From Deltaproteobacteria bacterium (GTDB taxonomy: Bacteria; Desulfobacterota; Syntrophobacteria; Syntrophobacterales; Syntrophobacteraceae): 51,242 bases of DNA. Shown here piece after piece: positions 1-26,880 of this stretch. The notes under the pieces were generated by a model, which saw nothing but the letters and a program-made list of their open reading frames with translations, did no database searches and had not been told where the DNA came from. The stretch covers positions 1-51,242 of the forward strand of contig JAJYDE010000027.1 of NCBI GenBank assembly GCA_021777755.1. Reading direction: 5' to 3'. The number at the start of each line of letters is the position of its first letter. Within the stretch, counting starts at the first letter, position 1. A program made the position numbers and the translations under genes.

Positions 1-1034
1 AAAGGGATGGCGTTTTTATTTACCGTTATGCCCGCCAGGTCCAGGGTCTGTTCGGCGATTTTTCCGGTAAGGCCGCGCGGGCCTAGATCGACAAGCATCA
101 GGTGATTGTCGGTCCCCCCCGAGACCAGCCGATAGCCGTGACCGGACAGGACTTCGGCAAGCCGCTTGCTGTTAGCGACCACGCGTTCCTGGTATTTTTT
201 AAATCCCGGCTGGAGCGCCTCCTTGAAGGAGACCGCCTTGGCGGCGATCACATGCATGAGCGGGCCGCCCTGAATTCCGGGGAAGATATGACTGTCGAGC
301 TTCTTGCCGTATTCGGCCCTGGCAAGTATCAAACCGCCTCGCGGACCTCGGAGCGTCTTGTGGGTCGTGGAGGTTACAAAGTCGGCGTAAGGGGCGGGAT
401 TGGGATGAAAACCCGTGGCCACAAGCCCCGCGATGTGGGCCATGTCAACCATGAGATGGGCGCCAGCCCGCTTTGCTATGGCCGAAAATCTTTCGAAATC
501 GATAATGCGCGGATAAGCGCTTGCCCCCGCAATGATCAGCTTCGGTCTTTCTTGCATGGCGAGGCGCTCGATATCATCGTAGTCGATTTGTTCGGTATCG
601 CGCCTGACCCCGTAGGAGACTACCCGGAAGAGCTTGCCTGAAAAACTCACCGGGCTTCCGTGGGTAAGATGGCCCCCTTGGCGCAGATCCATTCCCAGAA
701 TTGTATCGCCGGGCTGAAGCACGGCGAAAAGAACGCCCATGTTGGCCTGGGAGCCCGAATGGGGCTGAACGTTTGCGTAATCGGCGCAAAAGAGTTCGCA
801 GGCGCGGTCCTGAGCGAGCTTTTCGGCAACATCGACATATTCGCAGCCCCCGTAGTACCTTCTGCCCGGATAGCCTTCAGCGTATTTGTTGGTCAGCACC
901 GAGCCCTGGGCTTCCAGCACGGCCCTGCTGACAAAATTTTCCGATGCTATCAGCTCAAGGCGACCCTTCTGACGTTTTTCCTCTTTTTCGATGACTTCAG
1001 CTATCTCGGGATCGATGCGCTGCAAATACGACAT
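1..1034 (-). CDS. glyA: Serine hydroxymethyltransferase, 3' end beyond the left edge
   Basis: Cytoplasmic PLP enzyme that interconverts serine plus tetrahydrofolate with glycine plus 5,10-methylene-THF. About 344 residues are visible, reading leftward off the window; the family is usually 410-430 residues, so roughly the last 70-80 are missing. Diagnostic segments are [10 protein letters not shown] near the N-terminus, [25 protein letters not shown], and the PLP-lysine segment [13 protein letters not shown]. The ATG at 1032-1034 is preceded by AAGGA about seven bases upstream, which fixes the start. A plausible sigma-70 promoter lies about 95 bases upstream, so glyA may be transcribed separately from the glycosyltransferase genes behind it. 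Identification is secure; only the C-terminus is unseen. Confidence 0.96.
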
Positions 1035-2012: not shown

Positions 2013-3341
2013 TCAGCTGGAAAAAGGCTTCCAACTCAATCGTTTCTTCAATGGTTTCAATGAATTGTAAATGACAAACAATGCCAGAAGATACATCACG
2101 GGGACTAGTGGTATGGCGTACCGAGGCACCGGTGCCAATACGATGAACATGAGAGTGTATTCAAAAAGCAGAACGAAGCAGACTTTGAAGGCATAAACTT
2201 TATCCGGCATCGATCGGCTCTTGCCCGGATAAAAGAAAAGCACTCCTCCCCCAAGGAAAGCGACCAGAAAAAGATAGGGCTGGATGGATTGAAATGTTTT
2301 CTTCAAAGCGCCCATCGCCGGGTTGGTATCAAACCAGGATTTACTCACAGGATAGAAGTTCAGACCGTCCAGGGAAAGGTCGTTTCCGGACCAGAGATAT
2401 AGGGGTTTCCTCAGATACCACAGGAAATAGCGCATCGGCTCGAGCCTGAAATCCGATTCGATATGACTTATGACGGAGGGGTAACTCCGCAGGTACTTGT
2501 TAAATGATGGGTCCTCAAGGTACGGATAGCCCCTCATTTGCGCGTCTTTAAAAATCAGATCGGGATAGGAGCCAAGGAGCACCAGTTTTTTGATCTGGTC
2601 GGAGGAGGGCGAAGCGACAAGAGATCTGCGCCACAGACTCCAGCCCGTCTGAAAAGAAAAAGAGAGCACGATGAAGAGCAAACCGCATAAAACAGAGCGC
2701 CGCAGGTTTCCTCCATGATCGTAGAGGGCGAAAGCGGCGAACCAGATAACCGGAAAGGCGGCAATGGCGGGACGAGTCAGAATGCACAACCCCATGGCCA
2801 GGCCGGCAAGCGCATGCAGGACGAAGGAGTCTTGCTCGCGGGCCATTATAAGCAAAAGAAGCGACAGGATCAGGAGAAAAGTAAACAGAGTCTCAGTTAG
2901 CAGATAGGCGCTTATCACCACCATGAAAGGAGAAACGGAGACCGCGCAGGCAAGAAGGAAGGCCCATGGGTCTGGAAGCATGCGGCGGGCGAGATAGAAG
3001 CTCAAAAGAGCCGTGAGGGCTCCTAGAAACGACTGAATGAGCAGCGTCGTCCAATAAAACCCTCCAAAGGATTTCGAAGCCGAATAGATAAAAGACATGA
3101 GAAGGGGAAACCCCGGAGGCCATTGCTCGGCAGTGTCACTGTAGGCCGGGAATTTGGCGCTCGAATAGACATGATGCTCGGCCAGATTCAAGGCAAGGAC
3201 GACGTAACTTCGGGCATCGGCCCTGATGGGAGCGATAATCTTCGTATTCTCGATATACATGATGCGCAGCAGGAAGGAAAAAATCAGCAGGAGGCCCAAC
3301 AGAGCAAGAAGAACAACGCGCTTAATCCATTTTGATTCCAT
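2013..3341 (-). CDS. GT39/ArnT-like polytopic membrane glycosyltransferase
   Basis: About 442 residues, dominated by hydrophobic segments: an N-terminal anchor rich in Leu/Phe, then roughly nine or ten further spans, ending with a short basic tail. The first extracytoplasmic loop has acidic residues in IRADARSY followed by EQWPPGFPLL, the pattern seen in PMT_2/ArnT-type GT-C enzymes. These take sugars from polyprenyl-phosphate donors and place them on envelope glycans, lipid A or proteins on the periplasmic side. The adjoining GT2 gene supplies a plausible donor synthase. The ATG at 3341 is chosen because the hydrophobic anchor starts right after it; an in-frame GTG at 3389 would add 16 residues. 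Acceptor and sugar are unknown. Confidence 0.8.
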   Translation of the reverse strand: MESKWIKRVVLLALLGLLLIFSFLLRIMYIENTKIIAPIRADARSYVVLALNLAEHHVYSSAKFPAYSDTAEQWPPGFPLLMSFIYSASKSFGGFYWTTLLIQSFLGALTALLSFYLARRMLPDPWAFLLACAVSVSPFMVVISAYLLTETLFTFLLILSLLLLIMAREQDSFVLHALAGLAMGLCILTRPAIAAFPVIWFAAFALYDHGGNLRRSVLCGLLFIVLSFSFQTGWSLWRRSLVASPSSDQIKKLVLLGSYPDLIFKDAQMRGYPYLEDPSFNKYLRSYPSVISHIESDFRLEPMRYFLWYLRKPLYLWSGNDLSLDGLNFYPVSKSWFDTNPAMGALKKTFQSIQPYLFLVAFLGGGVLFFYPGKSRSMPDKVYAFKVCFVLLFEYTLMFIVLAPVPRYAIPLVPVMYLLALFVIYNSLKPLKKRLSWKPFSS

Positions 3342-3537
3342 TATCTCTTTCCCGGTTCCAACGAACTGTTCCGATGTTTCATTTACCACAAAAACGGAGG
3401 CTCGGCCCGAAAATCGGACCCGAGTCGATAAAAAAGGTTCGGGCGCGCCCTCCCCCCCTCTCGCGGTTCGATTTCAAGACCTGGGGGTTATGGAATGATT
3501 TTAATGTTGAAAATTTTTTTCTAAAGTTTTAAAGCTT

Positions 3538-3566
3538 TTGTGACGTTAATAATAACGACGTATAAT
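3538..3566 (+). promoter_or_regulatory. Sigma-70 promoter for the AT-rich secreted-protein gene
   Basis: TTGTGA, a 17-base spacer, and a perfect TATAAT, in an AT-rich stretch where no gene is visible. Transcription would start near 3573, leaving a leader of about 145 bases before the GTG start at 3719. Confidence 0.6.
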
Positions 3567-3572
3567 ATACCG

Positions 3573-3718
3573 AACTATTTTTGTTGTAGTCGAGCGACTT
3601 CACGCCGGGGGCAAAAAGCGAGTGCGTCTTTTTTGCGCGGAGTCACTCGGGCGCTTCGCAATGCGCCCTTCCAAAAAGAACATGCCACAACCCCGGGACT
3701 TGGAAAAGGAGGAACAGG
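3573..3718 (+). other. Leader with stacked hairpins upstream of the secreted-protein gene
   Basis: No coding sequence is supported here. Reading from the inferred start, GCAAAAAG (3611-3618) can pair with CTTTTTTGC (3628-3636) with one bulge. CGAGTG and CACTCG can pair across that hairpin as an alternative fold. A perfect six-base stem GGGCGC/GCGCCC (3649-3654 with 3663-3668) follows. The first two folds exclude one another, which could be regulatory, but this matches no riboswitch family I recognise. The ribosome-binding site AAGGAGG at 3706-3712 closes the leader. Confidence 0.35.
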
Positions 3719-4471
3719 GTGAAGTCTTCAAGACGTATACAAAGCATGGTAATCATTTGTATCGCGGCCCTCACGTTCGGCGCGGCCTCGACTCAAGGCA
3801 GGCAGTCTTTTTCCAACGGCTCGGACAACCAATTCAAGGACATATCAGGATCGATAAGTTGTGGCGATGCATACAGCACTATTGTTTCAAATGCACCGCT
3901 TCTCAATGAAAATTACTATCTGGTATTCATACCAAAATGGAATCTGAACTGCGCATCCCACAAACACATGGAAATCATATCCGAACGCGTTCATATGCTG
4001 AACGATTTGCAGCAAAAAGCCGATTCGTATATGAATGCCAAAAACTACAAGATGGCATCTCTTTATTTTGAACGATCGATGGCATTTTACTTTGAATTGG
4101 TGACGTTGCAAAAAAACGATCCCAAAGTAATTCTTCCACATTTACTGGACACAGTAAGCAGTTTAATCAGCATTTATTCACGAATGCAAGACAAACAAGA
4201 AGCCAACACTCTTGCGTCATGGGCACATACGGCATATTCGGAAAATAATAATGACAAAATGTATATCTCGCATGCGAGTGTCCCGGATAGTGTTAAAATT
4301 GATGCCGCTTTGGACCGATGCGATAAGGAAATGTATGACAGTACCGACAGATGTACTGGATCGTCCGATGTATATTCATTGGTCCAATGTTATAATAGAA
4401 GCAAGAAACAATATAAAGCATGTACGGATTCGGCGCACGCCGCCTTATACAGTCGTGAACGTGTGTTCTAA
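3719..4471 (+). CDS. Unknown secreted or periplasmic protein, cysteine-containing, AT-rich
   Basis: A 250-residue protein that I do not recognise. The start is a GTG six bases after a textbook AAGGAGG. The N-terminus is a classical signal peptide: two Lys/Arg-rich turns, a hydrophobic core (MVIICIAALTFGAAS), and likely cleavage near residue 25. The mature part has six cysteines (in ISCGD, LNCAS, DRCDK, DRCTG, VQCYN, KACTD), an even number compatible with disulfides outside the cytoplasm. Its middle (about residues 85-165) looks helical and vaguely TPR-like (KADSYMNAKNYKMASLYFER), suggesting a repeat protein. Base composition is clearly lower in GC than the neighbours, with codons such as AAA, AAT and TAT, a possible sign of transfer. 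It is 30 bases upstream of the DUF45 gene on the same strand. Confidence 0.72.
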   Translation: MKSSRRIQSMVIICIAALTFGAASTQGRQSFSNGSDNQFKDISGSISCGDAYSTIVSNAPLLNENYYLVFIPKWNLNCASHKHMEIISERVHMLNDLQQKADSYMNAKNYKMASLYFERSMAFYFELVTLQKNDPKVILPHLLDTVSSLISIYSRMQDKQEANTLASWAHTAYSENNNDKMYISHASVPDSVKIDAALDRCDKEMYDSTDRCTGSSDVYSLVQCYNRSKKQYKACTDSAHAALYSRERVF

Positions 4472-4501
4472 ACAGTATCACGCTTTAAAAGTAACACGGA
4501 G

Positions 4502-5203
4502 TTGAAATCATCCGAATTCAGCTATGAAGTCAGCACGAGCACCAGGCGAAAAACACTATCGATTGTCGTTCATTCGGACAATCGCGTCATAGTGCATGCA
4601 CCGGCTGGCTGTCCGAGGGTGAGGATAGCCCTGTTTGTCGAACAAAAATCCGAATGGATTAAAAAAGTTCTTCAAGTCAACTCGGAGAGGTGCCCGCGGT
4701 TTCGCGAAAGGGTCTTCGAGACCGGCGAAAGGCTGCCTTTTCTGGGCCGGGAGTACACACTGCATGTCGAGGAGGCAAAAGCGGCGGCGGTGGGACTCGA
4801 AGAGGGCCTCATCCGGGTGCGTCTTGGCCCGCGGGACTTGCGAGCGGGGCCTTCGAGGATAAAGGAACTCCTCCTGGAATGGTATGTTTCCCGCGCCATG
4901 GCCAAAATAGGTGAAAAGATAGCCCTCTATGCCCCCCGAATCAACGTGAGTCCGGGACGGGTTACGATCAAATCCCTCAAGTCGCGCTGGGGCAGTTGTT
5001 CGACAACCGGCCGAATCAGCCTTGCCTGGAACATCGTCATGGCGCCCGAAGCCGTCCTTGACTACCTCGTGGTTCACGAACTCTGCCACCTGGTTCATCA
5101 CGACCACTCGACGCGGTACTGGTCCCTTGTTGGCTCCATACTTCCCGACCACAGGGAAAGGAGAAAATGGCTGCGTGAAAACGGGTGGGGTCTGTATCTG
5201 TAG
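4502..5203 (+). CDS. YgjP/DUF45-type M48-like metallopeptidase
   Basis: A 233-residue soluble protein of the YgjP/SprT-like zincin family (DUF45, COG1451). The zinc site is H192-E193-L-C-H196 within VVHELCHLVHH, with further histidines just downstream that could supply the third ligand. Before it stand the family hallmarks KSLKSRWGSCS and ISLAWNIVMAP, and after it the HSTRYW segment. The family is often found near restriction-modification or nucleotide genes, and its substrate is unclear. The start is a TTG at 4502; no ATG or GTG exists between the upstream stop and the conserved domain. It reads from the same strand as the AT-rich gene just before it but has the GC-rich codon use of the rest of the window, so co-transcription may be incidental. 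Confidence 0.85.
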   Translation: MKSSEFSYEVSTSTRRKTLSIVVHSDNRVIVHAPAGCPRVRIALFVEQKSEWIKKVLQVNSERCPRFRERVFETGERLPFLGREYTLHVEEAKAAAVGLEEGLIRVRLGPRDLRAGPSRIKELLLEWYVSRAMAKIGEKIALYAPRINVSPGRVTIKSLKSRWGSCSTTGRISLAWNIVMAPEAVLDYLVVHELCHLVHHDHSTRYWSLVGSILPDHRERRKWLRENGWGLYL

Positions 5204-5791: not shown

Positions 5792-5819
5792 TGTCGCCTC
5801 CAGAGCCACACCTCTGTGT

Positions 5820-7052
5820 TCACGGGCCGACCGGCCGCAGGCCGCGCCCGGAAGGCCCGATGACATGGCCTGCATTGCCAAGAGCCATTGCGATTTCCCG
5901 GATATGGGCGAAGTTGCGGGTCTCGATTTCAAGCTCGACCCGACTCTGACGAACCGGCATATCGGCCCCTCCCCGGTTGTGATAGATTTGCAAAACATTG
6001 GCTCCGGCATGCGCGATGACGATCAGCAGACCGGCCAGCGCCCCCGGTTCGTCATCGAGAAGGATACTGAATCGCATGATGCGCCCGTTCCAGGAAAGGC
6101 CCTTGCGAATGACCCTGTCCAGGAGCGAAATATCGATATTTCCCCCGCTGACCACAAGGACGACCTTCGCTCCGGCGCGCGCCTCGATTTTTTCGCCCAG
6201 AAGAGCCGCGGCACCCACCGCCCCGGCTCCCTCCGCCAGCACTTTTTTACGCTCCAGCAGCATTATCACGGCCTCGGCAATACGGTCCTCGCCCACCAGG
6301 ACGATCCGGTCCACCTCCTTTCGGATAATCTCGAAAGGCAGTGAGCCGATTTGTTTGACGCTGATACCGTCGGCGATGGACGGGGCGGCCTCAACCCTGG
6401 TTCTTTGGCCGCTTTGCAAAGCCTCGAGAGCCGAGGGGCAGTTTTGGGCCTGCACCCCCACTATCCGCACATCGGGCCTCACCGAATGGGCCGCAACACC
6501 TATTCCGGCGATCAAGCCTCCGCCCCCCACCGGTACGACAATCAGATCGGCGTCGGGCAAATCCTCCATGATTTCCAGGCCTATGGTTGCCTGACCGGCT
6601 ATAATGGCCGGGTCGTCGAAAGGATGAATAAAAGCTCTGCCCTCTTTTGCCAGCTCCAAGGCCTTCTCAAGCGCATCGCCCAGATTCTGGCCTTCCAAAA
6701 TGACCTTCCCGCCGTATGCGCGCGTGGCCTCCTGCTTGGAAATCGACGCCCACACGGGCATGACGATGGTAGCCGCAAGCCCGGCGCGGCCGGCGGCCAG
6801 CGCTACCCCCTGGGCATGATTTCCCGCCGATGCCGCAACGACGCCTTCCTTGCCAATCCGATCGAGTTCGCCAAGGATTTTGAAGGTTGCGCCGCGAATT
6901 TTAAAAGATCCGGTGATCTGAAGATTTTCCAGTTTGAGATAGACTTCAAAGCCGGTAATTTTGCTGAAGGTGGGAGAATAGACAACCGGGGTGCGGATGA
7001 TGCGCCCCTTGAGCATGGAGGCGGCCCGCTCTATTTCACAGAGGCTGATCAT
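5820..7052 (-). CDS. ilvA: Threonine ammonia-lyase with ACT domain
   Basis: PLP-dependent deamination of threonine to 2-oxobutyrate, the first step toward isoleucine or a catabolic route. About 410 residues: a fold-type II catalytic domain followed by a C-terminal ACT domain. The PLP lysine is K51 in GSFKIRGA, the phosphate cradle is the glycine run in VPVGGGGLIAG, and the cofactor pocket includes SAGNHAQGVALAA. From about residue 325, MRFSILLDDEPGALAGLL begins one ACT module, as in the short allosteric enzymes (TdcB/IlvA type 2), not the two-module long IlvA. The start is uncertain: ATG 7052 has no strong ribosome-binding site, and ATG 7094 would add 14 residues. It follows the PAS kinase by about 60 bases. 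Confidence 0.93.
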   Translation of the reverse strand: MISLCEIERAASMLKGRIIRTPVVYSPTFSKITGFEVYLKLENLQITGSFKIRGATFKILGELDRIGKEGVVAASAGNHAQGVALAAGRAGLAATIVMPVWASISKQEATRAYGGKVILEGQNLGDALEKALELAKEGRAFIHPFDDPAIIAGQATIGLEIMEDLPDADLIVVPVGGGGLIAGIGVAAHSVRPDVRIVGVQAQNCPSALEALQSGQRTRVEAAPSIADGISVKQIGSLPFEIIRKEVDRIVLVGEDRIAEAVIMLLERKKVLAEGAGAVGAAALLGEKIEARAGAKVVLVVSGGNIDISLLDRVIRKGLSWNGRIMRFSILLDDEPGALAGLLIVIAHAGANVLQIYHNRGGADMPVRQSRVELEIETRNFAHIREIAMALGNAGHVIGPSGRGLRPVGP

Positions 7053-24317: not shown

Positions 24318-25850
24318 TCAGCAAAGAAGCCCGGCGAGTTCCGGAACCGGGACATTGGCGAGTTCCCTGGGCTCGAGCTTATGCAACCCGCCGCCATACA
24401 CACGCCCCTCAGCAAGCATGGTTTGTGGTTGTATTCGATTCAGTGTTTCCCAAATTTTGCGGACTGCGGAAGGGTCTTTTGCAAAAACTCTGGCAAGATT
24501 CGGCTTCGGATAAAGAGCCAAATAGACGTTCGTGACGGTGGCCCGCGAGTGATTCAGAATGAACCGGAAAGGTCGTCCGCTCTTAAGATTGCTTCGCCCC
24601 AAATAGGTGCAAACAATCGGGGCGGCGGGCCGGTTTTCCTGAGAATACCAGGGCGAACGGTGTTGGCATAGATACCGTTTGGCAACACCGCGCTCCCGAC
24701 CTTCCTGAAGGTAGCTCCACAAAGCCGGATAATGGTTTTTTAAAGCGATTTCCGAAATGTTGCAGTCGAGAAGGTATAAGGGATAATTCAAGATCGGGTT
24801 GCCATTTTCATCGGACATCACCTCGGTTTGAGGCAAATAACGCGGGCTTGGCAAAATCGGCTTGAAAAACTGAAACGGCAATTTGCGCACTGAAATTTGC
24901 GAGGCGGTGAGAATAAAATAGCTGTTATCTCCAGTTGCCAGGCCGCGCTTGATTGTGAAAAAGTCGGAGAGCGGCGGCGCCTCTTGGCCGGTGTGAACCT
25001 GAGCCTGCGCAAACCGCGTCCATTTCGGCTCAACGCGCAAAACCGAGGCAGGGACCATACGACATATTTTGGGGTTGGACAAAGTGCCGCCAAAGGTAAA
25101 CTGTACATTGTAATCCGCCGGGGGGGCTTCTTTCCTGAACCATACAACTGCCGACGACACCAAACAATCGTCAAACTGCACTTCATCGGGATCAAACCTG
25201 TGAATATGAAGAAGTCTTACCTTGTCTAAAAGATAACGCTTCACAGCCCCACCGTAATTCACGGCCATGAACTCGCCCGGAATCAACCATCCGGCAACAC
25301 CGCCTTCAACCATCCATGCATGCGAGAGCCCCAAAAAATGACAATATAGGCCCGCCAGACCGCTGAATTGTACACCGCAGGCCCTTGCGCTTGCGGCCTG
25401 AATCCTGGCCTTTTCACCATTCACAATATGATGGTGGCGAACATAGGGGGGATTACAAATGAGAAGATTGAAAACACCCTCGAGAGGCTGCTGCCTCGTA
25501 AAATCCGCCATGTGTAAATCAAGTTCCGTGTCAGCCCAAAGCTCAAGAGCCGGCCCGGCATAATGAGGATCGACTTCAAACCCTGCCGCTGCGGCAATCC
25601 GGCTCGCAGGGAAGGTCCGCAACAAGGCGGAATAGAAAGCACCGGTGCCAAAGCCTGGATCAAGAAAGCGAATCTGCTCACCGTGCGGCACAATTTTTTC
25701 CGCAAAAGACAGTATTTCCAACGCGAGCGCGGTTGGTGTGGCGAATTGCCCCATACGGTTACGCTCGTCCTGGGTTTTGAGGGCATCGAGCGCGCCCTGA
25801 AAATCGAGTCTTTGTTGCTCGCGGTTCAAAACCTGGTGCACAGCTTTCAT
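24318..25850 (-). CDS. Type II N6-adenine DNA methyltransferase
   Basis: A 510-residue methylase that would protect host DNA by methylating adenine in the recognition site. SAM-binding motif I is LDPGFGTGAF (residues 64-73), catalytic motif IV is NPPY (133-136), and RMGQFATPTALA just before motif I is typical of gamma-type/Eco57I-like N6-adenine methylases. The remaining 350 residues would hold the target-recognition domain. ATG 25850 is set by the adjacent nuclease stop: the stop TGA is followed by one base and then this ATG, so the two are translationally coupled. A frame extension upstream is not meaningful. It converges on the acyl-CoA dehydrogenase with a 26-base gap. Confidence 0.9.
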   Translation of the reverse strand: MKAVHQVLNREQQRLDFQGALDALKTQDERNRMGQFATPTALALEILSFAEKIVPHGEQIRFLDPGFGTGAFYSALLRTFPASRIAAAAGFEVDPHYAGPALELWADTELDLHMADFTRQQPLEGVFNLLICNPPYVRHHHIVNGEKARIQAASARACGVQFSGLAGLYCHFLGLSHAWMVEGGVAGWLIPGEFMAVNYGGAVKRYLLDKVRLLHIHRFDPDEVQFDDCLVSSAVVWFRKEAPPADYNVQFTFGGTLSNPKICRMVPASVLRVEPKWTRFAQAQVHTGQEAPPLSDFFTIKRGLATGDNSYFILTASQISVRKLPFQFFKPILPSPRYLPQTEVMSDENGNPILNYPLYLLDCNISEIALKNHYPALWSYLQEGRERGVAKRYLCQHRSPWYSQENRPAAPIVCTYLGRSNLKSGRPFRFILNHSRATVTNVYLALYPKPNLARVFAKDPSAVRKIWETLNRIQPQTMLAEGRVYGGGLHKLEPRELANVPVPELAGLLC

Positions 25851-25851
25851 T

Positions 25852-26880
25852 TCACAATCCGAATTTTTCAAGGTCGTCGATCCGGTGTTCCCAAACCCAA
25901 TCCATACCCTCCGCGGCCTCATAGCCAAGGTATCCGCTATCGAAATACCCGCACAGGAAGAGAATATATGTTACGCACTTTCCGTGGGTATGCCGCAGCT
26001 GATTAATTTTGCTGGCTTCCTCCTTCCTCCGCTTATTGACGTTGGTAAAGTCGCCAGCCGATTTTGCCTCAATCAACAAAGGCAAGTCACCGGGTCTGGC
26101 CGTCTTCCGCATAACCACGGCATCAATAGGTATGTTAATTGACTTCGACGCCCCTTCCCGCCCAACTGGTATATTCAGACGAAAAGCAAAGGTTCCAGGT
26201 GGCATCGCGTTGAACTTTATGCCGTTACCCGAAGGCAACTGCTTATAACCGCGTGTTTCCAGCCAAGCGGCTATTGCGGCAAGCTGTCGTTTCTCCTGAG
26301 CGTTGCGGACGATGGGGTTTGCCTCGGCCCCGCAAAGCCGATCGGCAACAATTACCGCAGCTCGATAAGCCTCTTCTTTGGAAGGTTTGTGTTTTTGTGC
26401 AAGCCACACAAAAATGTCAGGATCGGCCATTTTTTCGATCATCTGACTTATTCGCGCCAGATCGCTTTCGAGTTCGTCCGGAGCCATGCGCGACGGGAGG
26501 TTCCCTCTCTCCATAACCTTGACGAGATTTTTTGAAACGCCAGCCAATCCGATCAGTCGATCAACTGCCAAAGGCGGGCAGGTAGACATGCGTAAGGTGG
26601 GTAGCGCGGATGGGTTGTTTCGCAGGACCTCCGTTTTGATGTTGGTCAGGTTTTCTGTGACCTTCAAAGTTTCTTCAACAGTCTTGGTGGACTTTATTCG
26701 AGTAGCGCGATAAGCCTCGGGCGCAAATTTTATGAACCAATCGTTATACATATGGACGGAGCGGGCAATGTCGTCCTTCCACAAATCAGGCTTATCCCTA
26801 TTGATTCCCATACCCCCACCCATCTTCTCACATCCGTCGCTTTTCCAATTGATTTTAATGGGTTGATAACTTGCTTTCAT
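25852..26880 (-). CDS. XamI-family type II restriction endonuclease
   Basis: A 342-residue protein resembling the XamI restriction endonuclease family. Recalled family features include DIARSVHMYNDWFIKFAPEAYR and LIGLAGVSKNLVKVMERG. A PD-(D/E)XK-like core is visible as an Asp in INIPIDAVVM followed by the IEAKSAGDF segment, where Glu and Lys would bind the metal and act in catalysis. XamI itself cuts GTCGAC; that specificity for this protein is an inference only. The start is uncertain: ATG 26880, 26823 and 26811 are in frame, and the conserved part begins after the last one. It precedes the methylase with one base between stop and ATG, a standard type II pair. Confidence 0.8.
   Translation of the reverse strand: MKASYQPIKINWKSDGCEKMGGGMGINRDKPDLWKDDIARSVHMYNDWFIKFAPEAYRATRIKSTKTVEETLKVTENLTNIKTEVLRNNPSALPTLRMSTCPPLAVDRLIGLAGVSKNLVKVMERGNLPSRMAPDELESDLARISQMIEKMADPDIFVWLAQKHKPSKEEAYRAAVIVADRLCGAEANPIVRNAQEKRQLAAIAAWLETRGYKQLPSGNGIKFNAMPPGTFAFRLNIPVGREGASKSINIPIDAVVMRKTARPGDLPLLIEAKSAGDFTNVNKRRKEEASKINQLRHTHGKCVTYILFLCGYFDSGYLGYEAAEGMDWVWEHRIDDLEKFGL

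Follow-up and report, generated by a model that had tools for sequence, protein, structure and literature searches.

An AT-rich orphan gene for a predicted exported protein, probably transferred into the glyA-ygjP interval of a member of the Syntrophobacteraceae

The window analysed here, the entire 51,242-base contig of a 4.2-Mb genome assembled in 103 contigs, carries a real and probably transferred AT-rich orphan gene with a readable insertion history, a finding that is interesting but fairly ordinary. As the best explanation, to which we assign a probability of about one half, we propose the recent insertion of a single gene (about 1.05 kb) that encodes an exported, disulphide-stapled protein-binding scaffold, with the downstream gene ygjP probably on its transcript. 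The insertion would have come with a promoter, a leader and a strong ribosome-binding site of its own and would have landed between the upstream element of ygjP and the ygjP coding sequence. Its product would be exported by the Sec route and fold as a short stack of TPR-type helical hairpins, the C-terminal one stapled by disulphides. It would most likely act in the envelope, outside the cytoplasm, as a scaffold presumed to bind proteins or peptides, and ygjP would probably be carried on the orphan transcript as a side effect.

The orphan gene extends from a GTG start at 3719 to 4471 on the forward strand and encodes 250 amino acids. Among 2000 sequences drawn from a first-order Markov model of the region, none reached the 293 codons of the open stretch in which it lies, and the longest attained 269. 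Its GC content of 0.42 and GC3 of 0.45 are the lowest of the 24 window genes tested; GC3 amounts to 0.60 and 0.69 in the two adjoining glycosyltransferase genes and ranges from 0.55 to 0.75 in the 21 others. Likewise, its codon-adaptation-like score (0.58) stands at the bottom of the 24 genes, the next one scoring 0.64. The lowest-GC 750-base stretches of the window sit on the orphan (0.404, at a window mean of 0.568 and a standard deviation of 0.037), whereas stretches that start outside 2900-4600 do not fall below 0.479. The sharp drop in composition that had been read from the sequence is thus borne out by GC, GC3 and the 750-base windows, but it is not uniform: positions 3481-3600 have 30% GC, as against 58% at 3601-3718. 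Elsewhere in the window, two minus-strand ORFs at 24318-26880 have a GC3 of 0.55-0.56 and gave no NCBIfam match at 1e-5.

The gene comes with expression signals of its own. A putative sigma-70-like promoter, TTGTGA-17-TATAAT, at 3538-3566 of the forward strand agrees with the consensus at 10 of 12 positions and confirms the TATAAT promoter of the earlier reading; it lies within the 30% GC stretch (3481-3600), in which promoter-like sites also occur by chance. Over 3300-4700, seven promoter-like sites were found, compared with 2.7 ± 1.8 in shuffled sequences. A Shine-Dalgarno sequence, AAGGAGG, immediately precedes the GTG, in keeping with the ideal ribosome-binding site that had been described. 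From these consensus signals, it is plausible that the orphan is expressed, and we would put the claim that it "looks expressed" no higher than that.

The structured leader with mutually exclusive hairpins, another element of the sequence-only reading, did not hold up. The presumed 145-nt leader (3574-3718, forward strand) folds no better than its shuffles (z = +0.57; 152 of 200 shuffles as stable), and an Rfam search gave no match up to E 5. An 88-nt core and an extended segment (3570-3760) reached z-scores of -1.70 (12/200 shuffles as stable) and -1.66 (9/200), respectively. Moving the end points of the leader produced different pairings, which correspond to the alternative hairpins seen at first; such alternative pairings upon shifted end points are common in GC-rich sequences. 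A riboswitch or other known RNA was rejected, as there was no Rfam match and the stability did not exceed that of shuffles. The leader is single-copy in its own genome, and two weak matches of 30-34 bases (E about 0.007) in 2 of 39 other genomes were taken as chance.

With regard to the protein, the description as secreted and bearing six cysteines agrees with the sequence. A signal peptide is predicted at about residues 1-25, with a basic N-terminus and a 13-residue hydrophobic core (residues 10-22), and the protein has no other comparable hydrophobic stretch; export therefore appears likely from these features. Of its seven cysteines, one (residue 14) falls into the signal peptide, inside the hydrophobic core, where it presumably does not fit a lipobox, and six (48, 78, 201, 212, 224 and 235) belong to the mature part. 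The last four form a twin CX10C pattern, with C201/C212 and C224/C235 on the two helices of a predicted C-terminal hairpin. An equally spaced cysteine pair of this kind arose in 44 of 20,000 shuffles, a figure to be read with the pattern having been picked after it was seen. On an antiparallel hairpin, C212 would pair with C224 and C201 with C235, two disulphides symmetric about residue 218.

Searches of Pfam, NCBIfam and PDB sequences yielded no match above cut-off, and the statement that the protein belongs to no recognised family stands at curated cut-offs. Evidence below these cut-offs, on the other hand, points to TPR-like helical repeats. Sub-threshold Pfam matches comprised TPR_2 (at best 15.1 bits, cut-off 27), TPR_8 (15.3 bits, cut-off 25.7) and TPR_Slam; matches to DUF1186 and ARM_TT21 were below cut-off and were set aside. 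An AlphaFold2 single-sequence model (mean pLDDT 49.6, pTM 0.38) has helical blocks mostly at pLDDT 50-79, with helix pairs at residues 82-106/110-130, 135-155/159-174 and 190-212/218-244, and a second model, restricted to the helical region, reached a mean pLDDT of 59.0. Foldseek with the full-length model gave a best E of 7e-3 and no match at 1e-3; from their titles or from general knowledge of these proteins, we take all 50 matches listed to be TPR proteins. The helical-region model returned a weaker and mixed list (TPR, C3PO, designed repeats and MIT domains; best E 0.16). A VIA comparison reached a Z of at most 13.0, which the tool rates as unremarkable for helical repeats and which we treated as a common helical arrangement. 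Two 34-residue stretches (94-127 and 143-176) each carry six of seven TPR signature positions, a result equalled by 41 of 5000 shuffles. Taken together, and with all scores below significance, the mature region of the model resembles a pair of degenerate hairpins of TPR type, at about 94-127 and 143-176, followed by a C-terminal hairpin.

Several known systems resemble the orphan in part. With TPR and kinesin-light-chain-like TPR proteins (TPR_2, TPR_8), it shares predicted tandem helical hairpins, most signature positions in two stretches and a TPR-dominated Foldseek list. It differs from them in that no profile matches above the curated cut-off, the degenerate repeats are 49 residues apart, the model is of low confidence and the protein, which bears cysteines, is predicted to be exported. 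Helicobacter HcpB and HcpC, built from Sel1-like repeats, and Csep1P of Campylobacter concisus are exported, all-helical proteins of disulphide-reinforced hairpins, and by prediction the orphan is alike (PMC12904459, PMC3851747). Csep1P resembles HcpB and HcpC, although TPRpred detects no Sel1-like repeats in its sequence (PMC12904459); its cysteines lie nine residues apart with one pair per hairpin, whereas the orphan has its twin CX10C on one hairpin. HcpC itself appeared in the helical-region Foldseek list at rank 42 (E 2.0), and no Sel1 profile was among the Pfam matches of the orphan in searches with E limits of 1 and 10. CHCH or twin CX9C proteins likewise have a pair of helices, both carrying two widely separated cysteines, and CX10C variants occur among them (PMC7909247). 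They are, however, mitochondrial, and the orphan, with CX10C instead of CX9C, shares only the resemblance in spacing; residues 188-250 gave no Pfam match, CHCH included.

Among the genomes examined, the orphan is private to one species. It matched only its own genome in 55 genomes of the class (11 of them from the genus, i.e. its own and 10 congeners, and 26 from the family), in 97 relatives and in 395 genomes sampled across the phylum, three sets that overlap. It was found in none of the 10 congeners, no orthologue of the same AT content occupies the same site in any of them, and no paralogue exists in its own genome at E 1. Searches of phages, plasmids and bacterial and viral contigs detected no relative either; the contig scans require short shared peptides and reach close relatives only. 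A PHROG match (E 0.43) and a PADLOC match to Cas6 (E 0.0089) were taken as chance, the latter with a signal peptide present and no other Cas feature seen. Absence of homologues, atypical composition and an empty site in relatives, the hallmarks of a horizontally acquired AT-rich ORFan, are all present. The suggestion that the gene was transferred in accordingly gains support from its absence from the 10 congeners and the 54 other class genomes, its aberrant composition and its insertion position relative to the congeners.

What arrived might also be an ORFan of phage or mobile descent, decaying or junk-like, that serves no selected function in its host, an alternative that we regard as unlikely, yet deserving of some weight. 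Private genes rich in AT are frequently encountered: the ORFans of E. coli average 44% G+C, compared with 47% in other acquired genes (PMC2275313). Like such ORFans, the orphan is private, AT-rich and a single gene (PMC2275313), and a gene with no relatives offers no evidence of selection. It departs from this class in its clear export signal and its reconstructable insertion point. Decay is also hard to square with an intact 250-codon frame that has kept a signal peptide, a strong ribosome-binding site and a promoter, and a phage or mobile origin with the absence of any phage or plasmid match.

The insertion point can be located by comparison with the congeners. At one end of the contig lies glyA (serine hydroxymethyltransferase; 3-1034, minus strand; NCBIfam PRK00011, E 8e-167), which runs off the contig end, and its upstream region (1035-1167) matches that of congener locus L020 by blastn (E 1.5e-13), the alignment extending to about 1167. 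The ygjP-like metallopeptidase gene (4502-5203, forward strand; Pfam PF01863, E 3.5e-58) is kept in 11 of 11 genus genomes. Between the starts of glyA (1034) and ygjP (4502), the window has a gap of about 3.47 kb. In 7 of 10 congener loci, glyA adjoins ygjP across 255-857 bases; the gap is 255-320 bases in six of them and 857 bases, with no ORF of at least 90 amino acids, in the seventh (L021). At an eighth locus (L019), glyA is 4.1 kb from ygjP, and glyA was not found in the stretches examined at L022 and L025. Judging from these loci, the original arrangement is glyA-ygjP. An old, vertically inherited gene that the relatives have lost or changed past recognition, and that selection has kept AT-rich, is very improbable: very divergent relatives would indeed be invisible to searches, but the six gaps of 255-320 bases among 10 loci and the ORF-less gap of 857 bases most simply represent the empty state.

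A putative remnant of the element that ancestrally lay just upstream of ygjP is retained at 3362-3428 of the forward strand, now about 1.07 kb from ygjP, and aligns with positions -134 to -65 before ygjP of L020. This alignment scores 55, the best of 200 shuffles 32.5, and it is the top place on either window strand. Three window stretches were tested with five congeners, among which L020 alone is clear. Within 3340-3720, the L021 element falls at the same place and in the same register, with a marginal score of 31.5 against a shuffle maximum of 30.5 (0/200), and scores slightly higher at two other window places; the L019 element again shares place and register, not significantly (16/200 shuffles), and those of L022 and L023 have their best places elsewhere. 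A similar element was recognised by eye in each of the five close congeners, 60-135 bases before ygjP. In alignment A1, two of the bases around a conserved GCTAAT-like part are missing from the window copy, a loss that would fit a promoter no longer in use, if the element is indeed a promoter. The 3' end of an ilvA-like gene (5801-6000) is the second-best place for the L020 element (43) and the best for that of L019 (38.5), possibly by chance.

Since this remnant sits between the glycosyltransferase pair and the orphan, two separate insertions would be the simplest reading. Insertion A, flanked by the region upstream of glyA on one side and the ygjP element on the other, comprises a GT2 glycosyltransferase gene (1239-2000; Pfam PF00535, E 1.2e-22) and a PMT_2-type membrane glycosyltransferase gene (2013-3341; Pfam PF13231, E 8e-8), both on the minus strand; the latter has its likely start at 3341, with the ORF opening at 3389. 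Insertion B, the orphan cassette, covers 3429-4501, its left edge being the end of the L020 alignment while its right edge, set by eye, may lie anywhere from about 4475 to 4501. A search for long flanking repeats found none, and insertion B showed neither a target-site duplication nor terminal repeats, nor a gene of a mobile element; a transposon appears unlikely given the lack of terminal and target-site repeats, and no attC of an integron cassette was recognised by eye. In L019 (G007), a 4.1-kb insertion, apparently with acyl-CoA metabolism genes by ORF reading, separates glyA from the ygjP upstream element, and the glyA-ygjP spot may be an insertion hot spot. In the 857-base gap of L021 (G008), short variants of ATAACAGC and words resembling GGCAAC recur many times, a pattern that looks like a degenerate repeat array.

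This insertion history argues against a common origin of the orphan and the glycosyltransferases. We consider it improbable that the orphan belongs functionally with the pair, the three genes forming a single acquired module for envelope glycans whose glycosyltransferases would have the exported helical protein as acceptor or partner. The pair is adjacent and divergently transcribed, its PMT_2-type gene has no match in the 10 congeners at 1e-10, and in family and phylum genomes its relatives sit, by ORF reading, in polysaccharide-type neighbourhoods. Against this stand the intervening remnant, the GC3 of 0.60-0.69 in the pair versus 0.45 in the orphan, and a tblastn of the orphan against five loci with relatives of the pair, which was negative at 1e-4. 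A distant genome of the phylum (L054) has a gene 57% identical to the GT2 gene; the matches of its PMT-like partner are much more distant, and the two genes of the pair may have different histories.

Returning to the single-gene insertion, ygjP is probably now read from the promoter of the orphan, because only 30 nt separate the orphan end from the ygjP start and no terminator-like site lies between them. Whether the orphan further represents an as yet unrecognised family of exported helical-hairpin proteins with disulphide staples, which would travel as promoter-bearing single-gene insertions and take over a downstream gene (here ygjP) by replacing its ancestral promoter, is a speculation to which we give little credence.

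In summary, the present work describes a readable case of a private gene entering a conserved neighbourhood, since congeners show both the unoccupied site and the element that was displaced from ygjP. For the protein itself to matter, relatives or a function would first have to come to light. If the orphan drives ygjP, the locus would show a newly arrived gene rewiring a core one.
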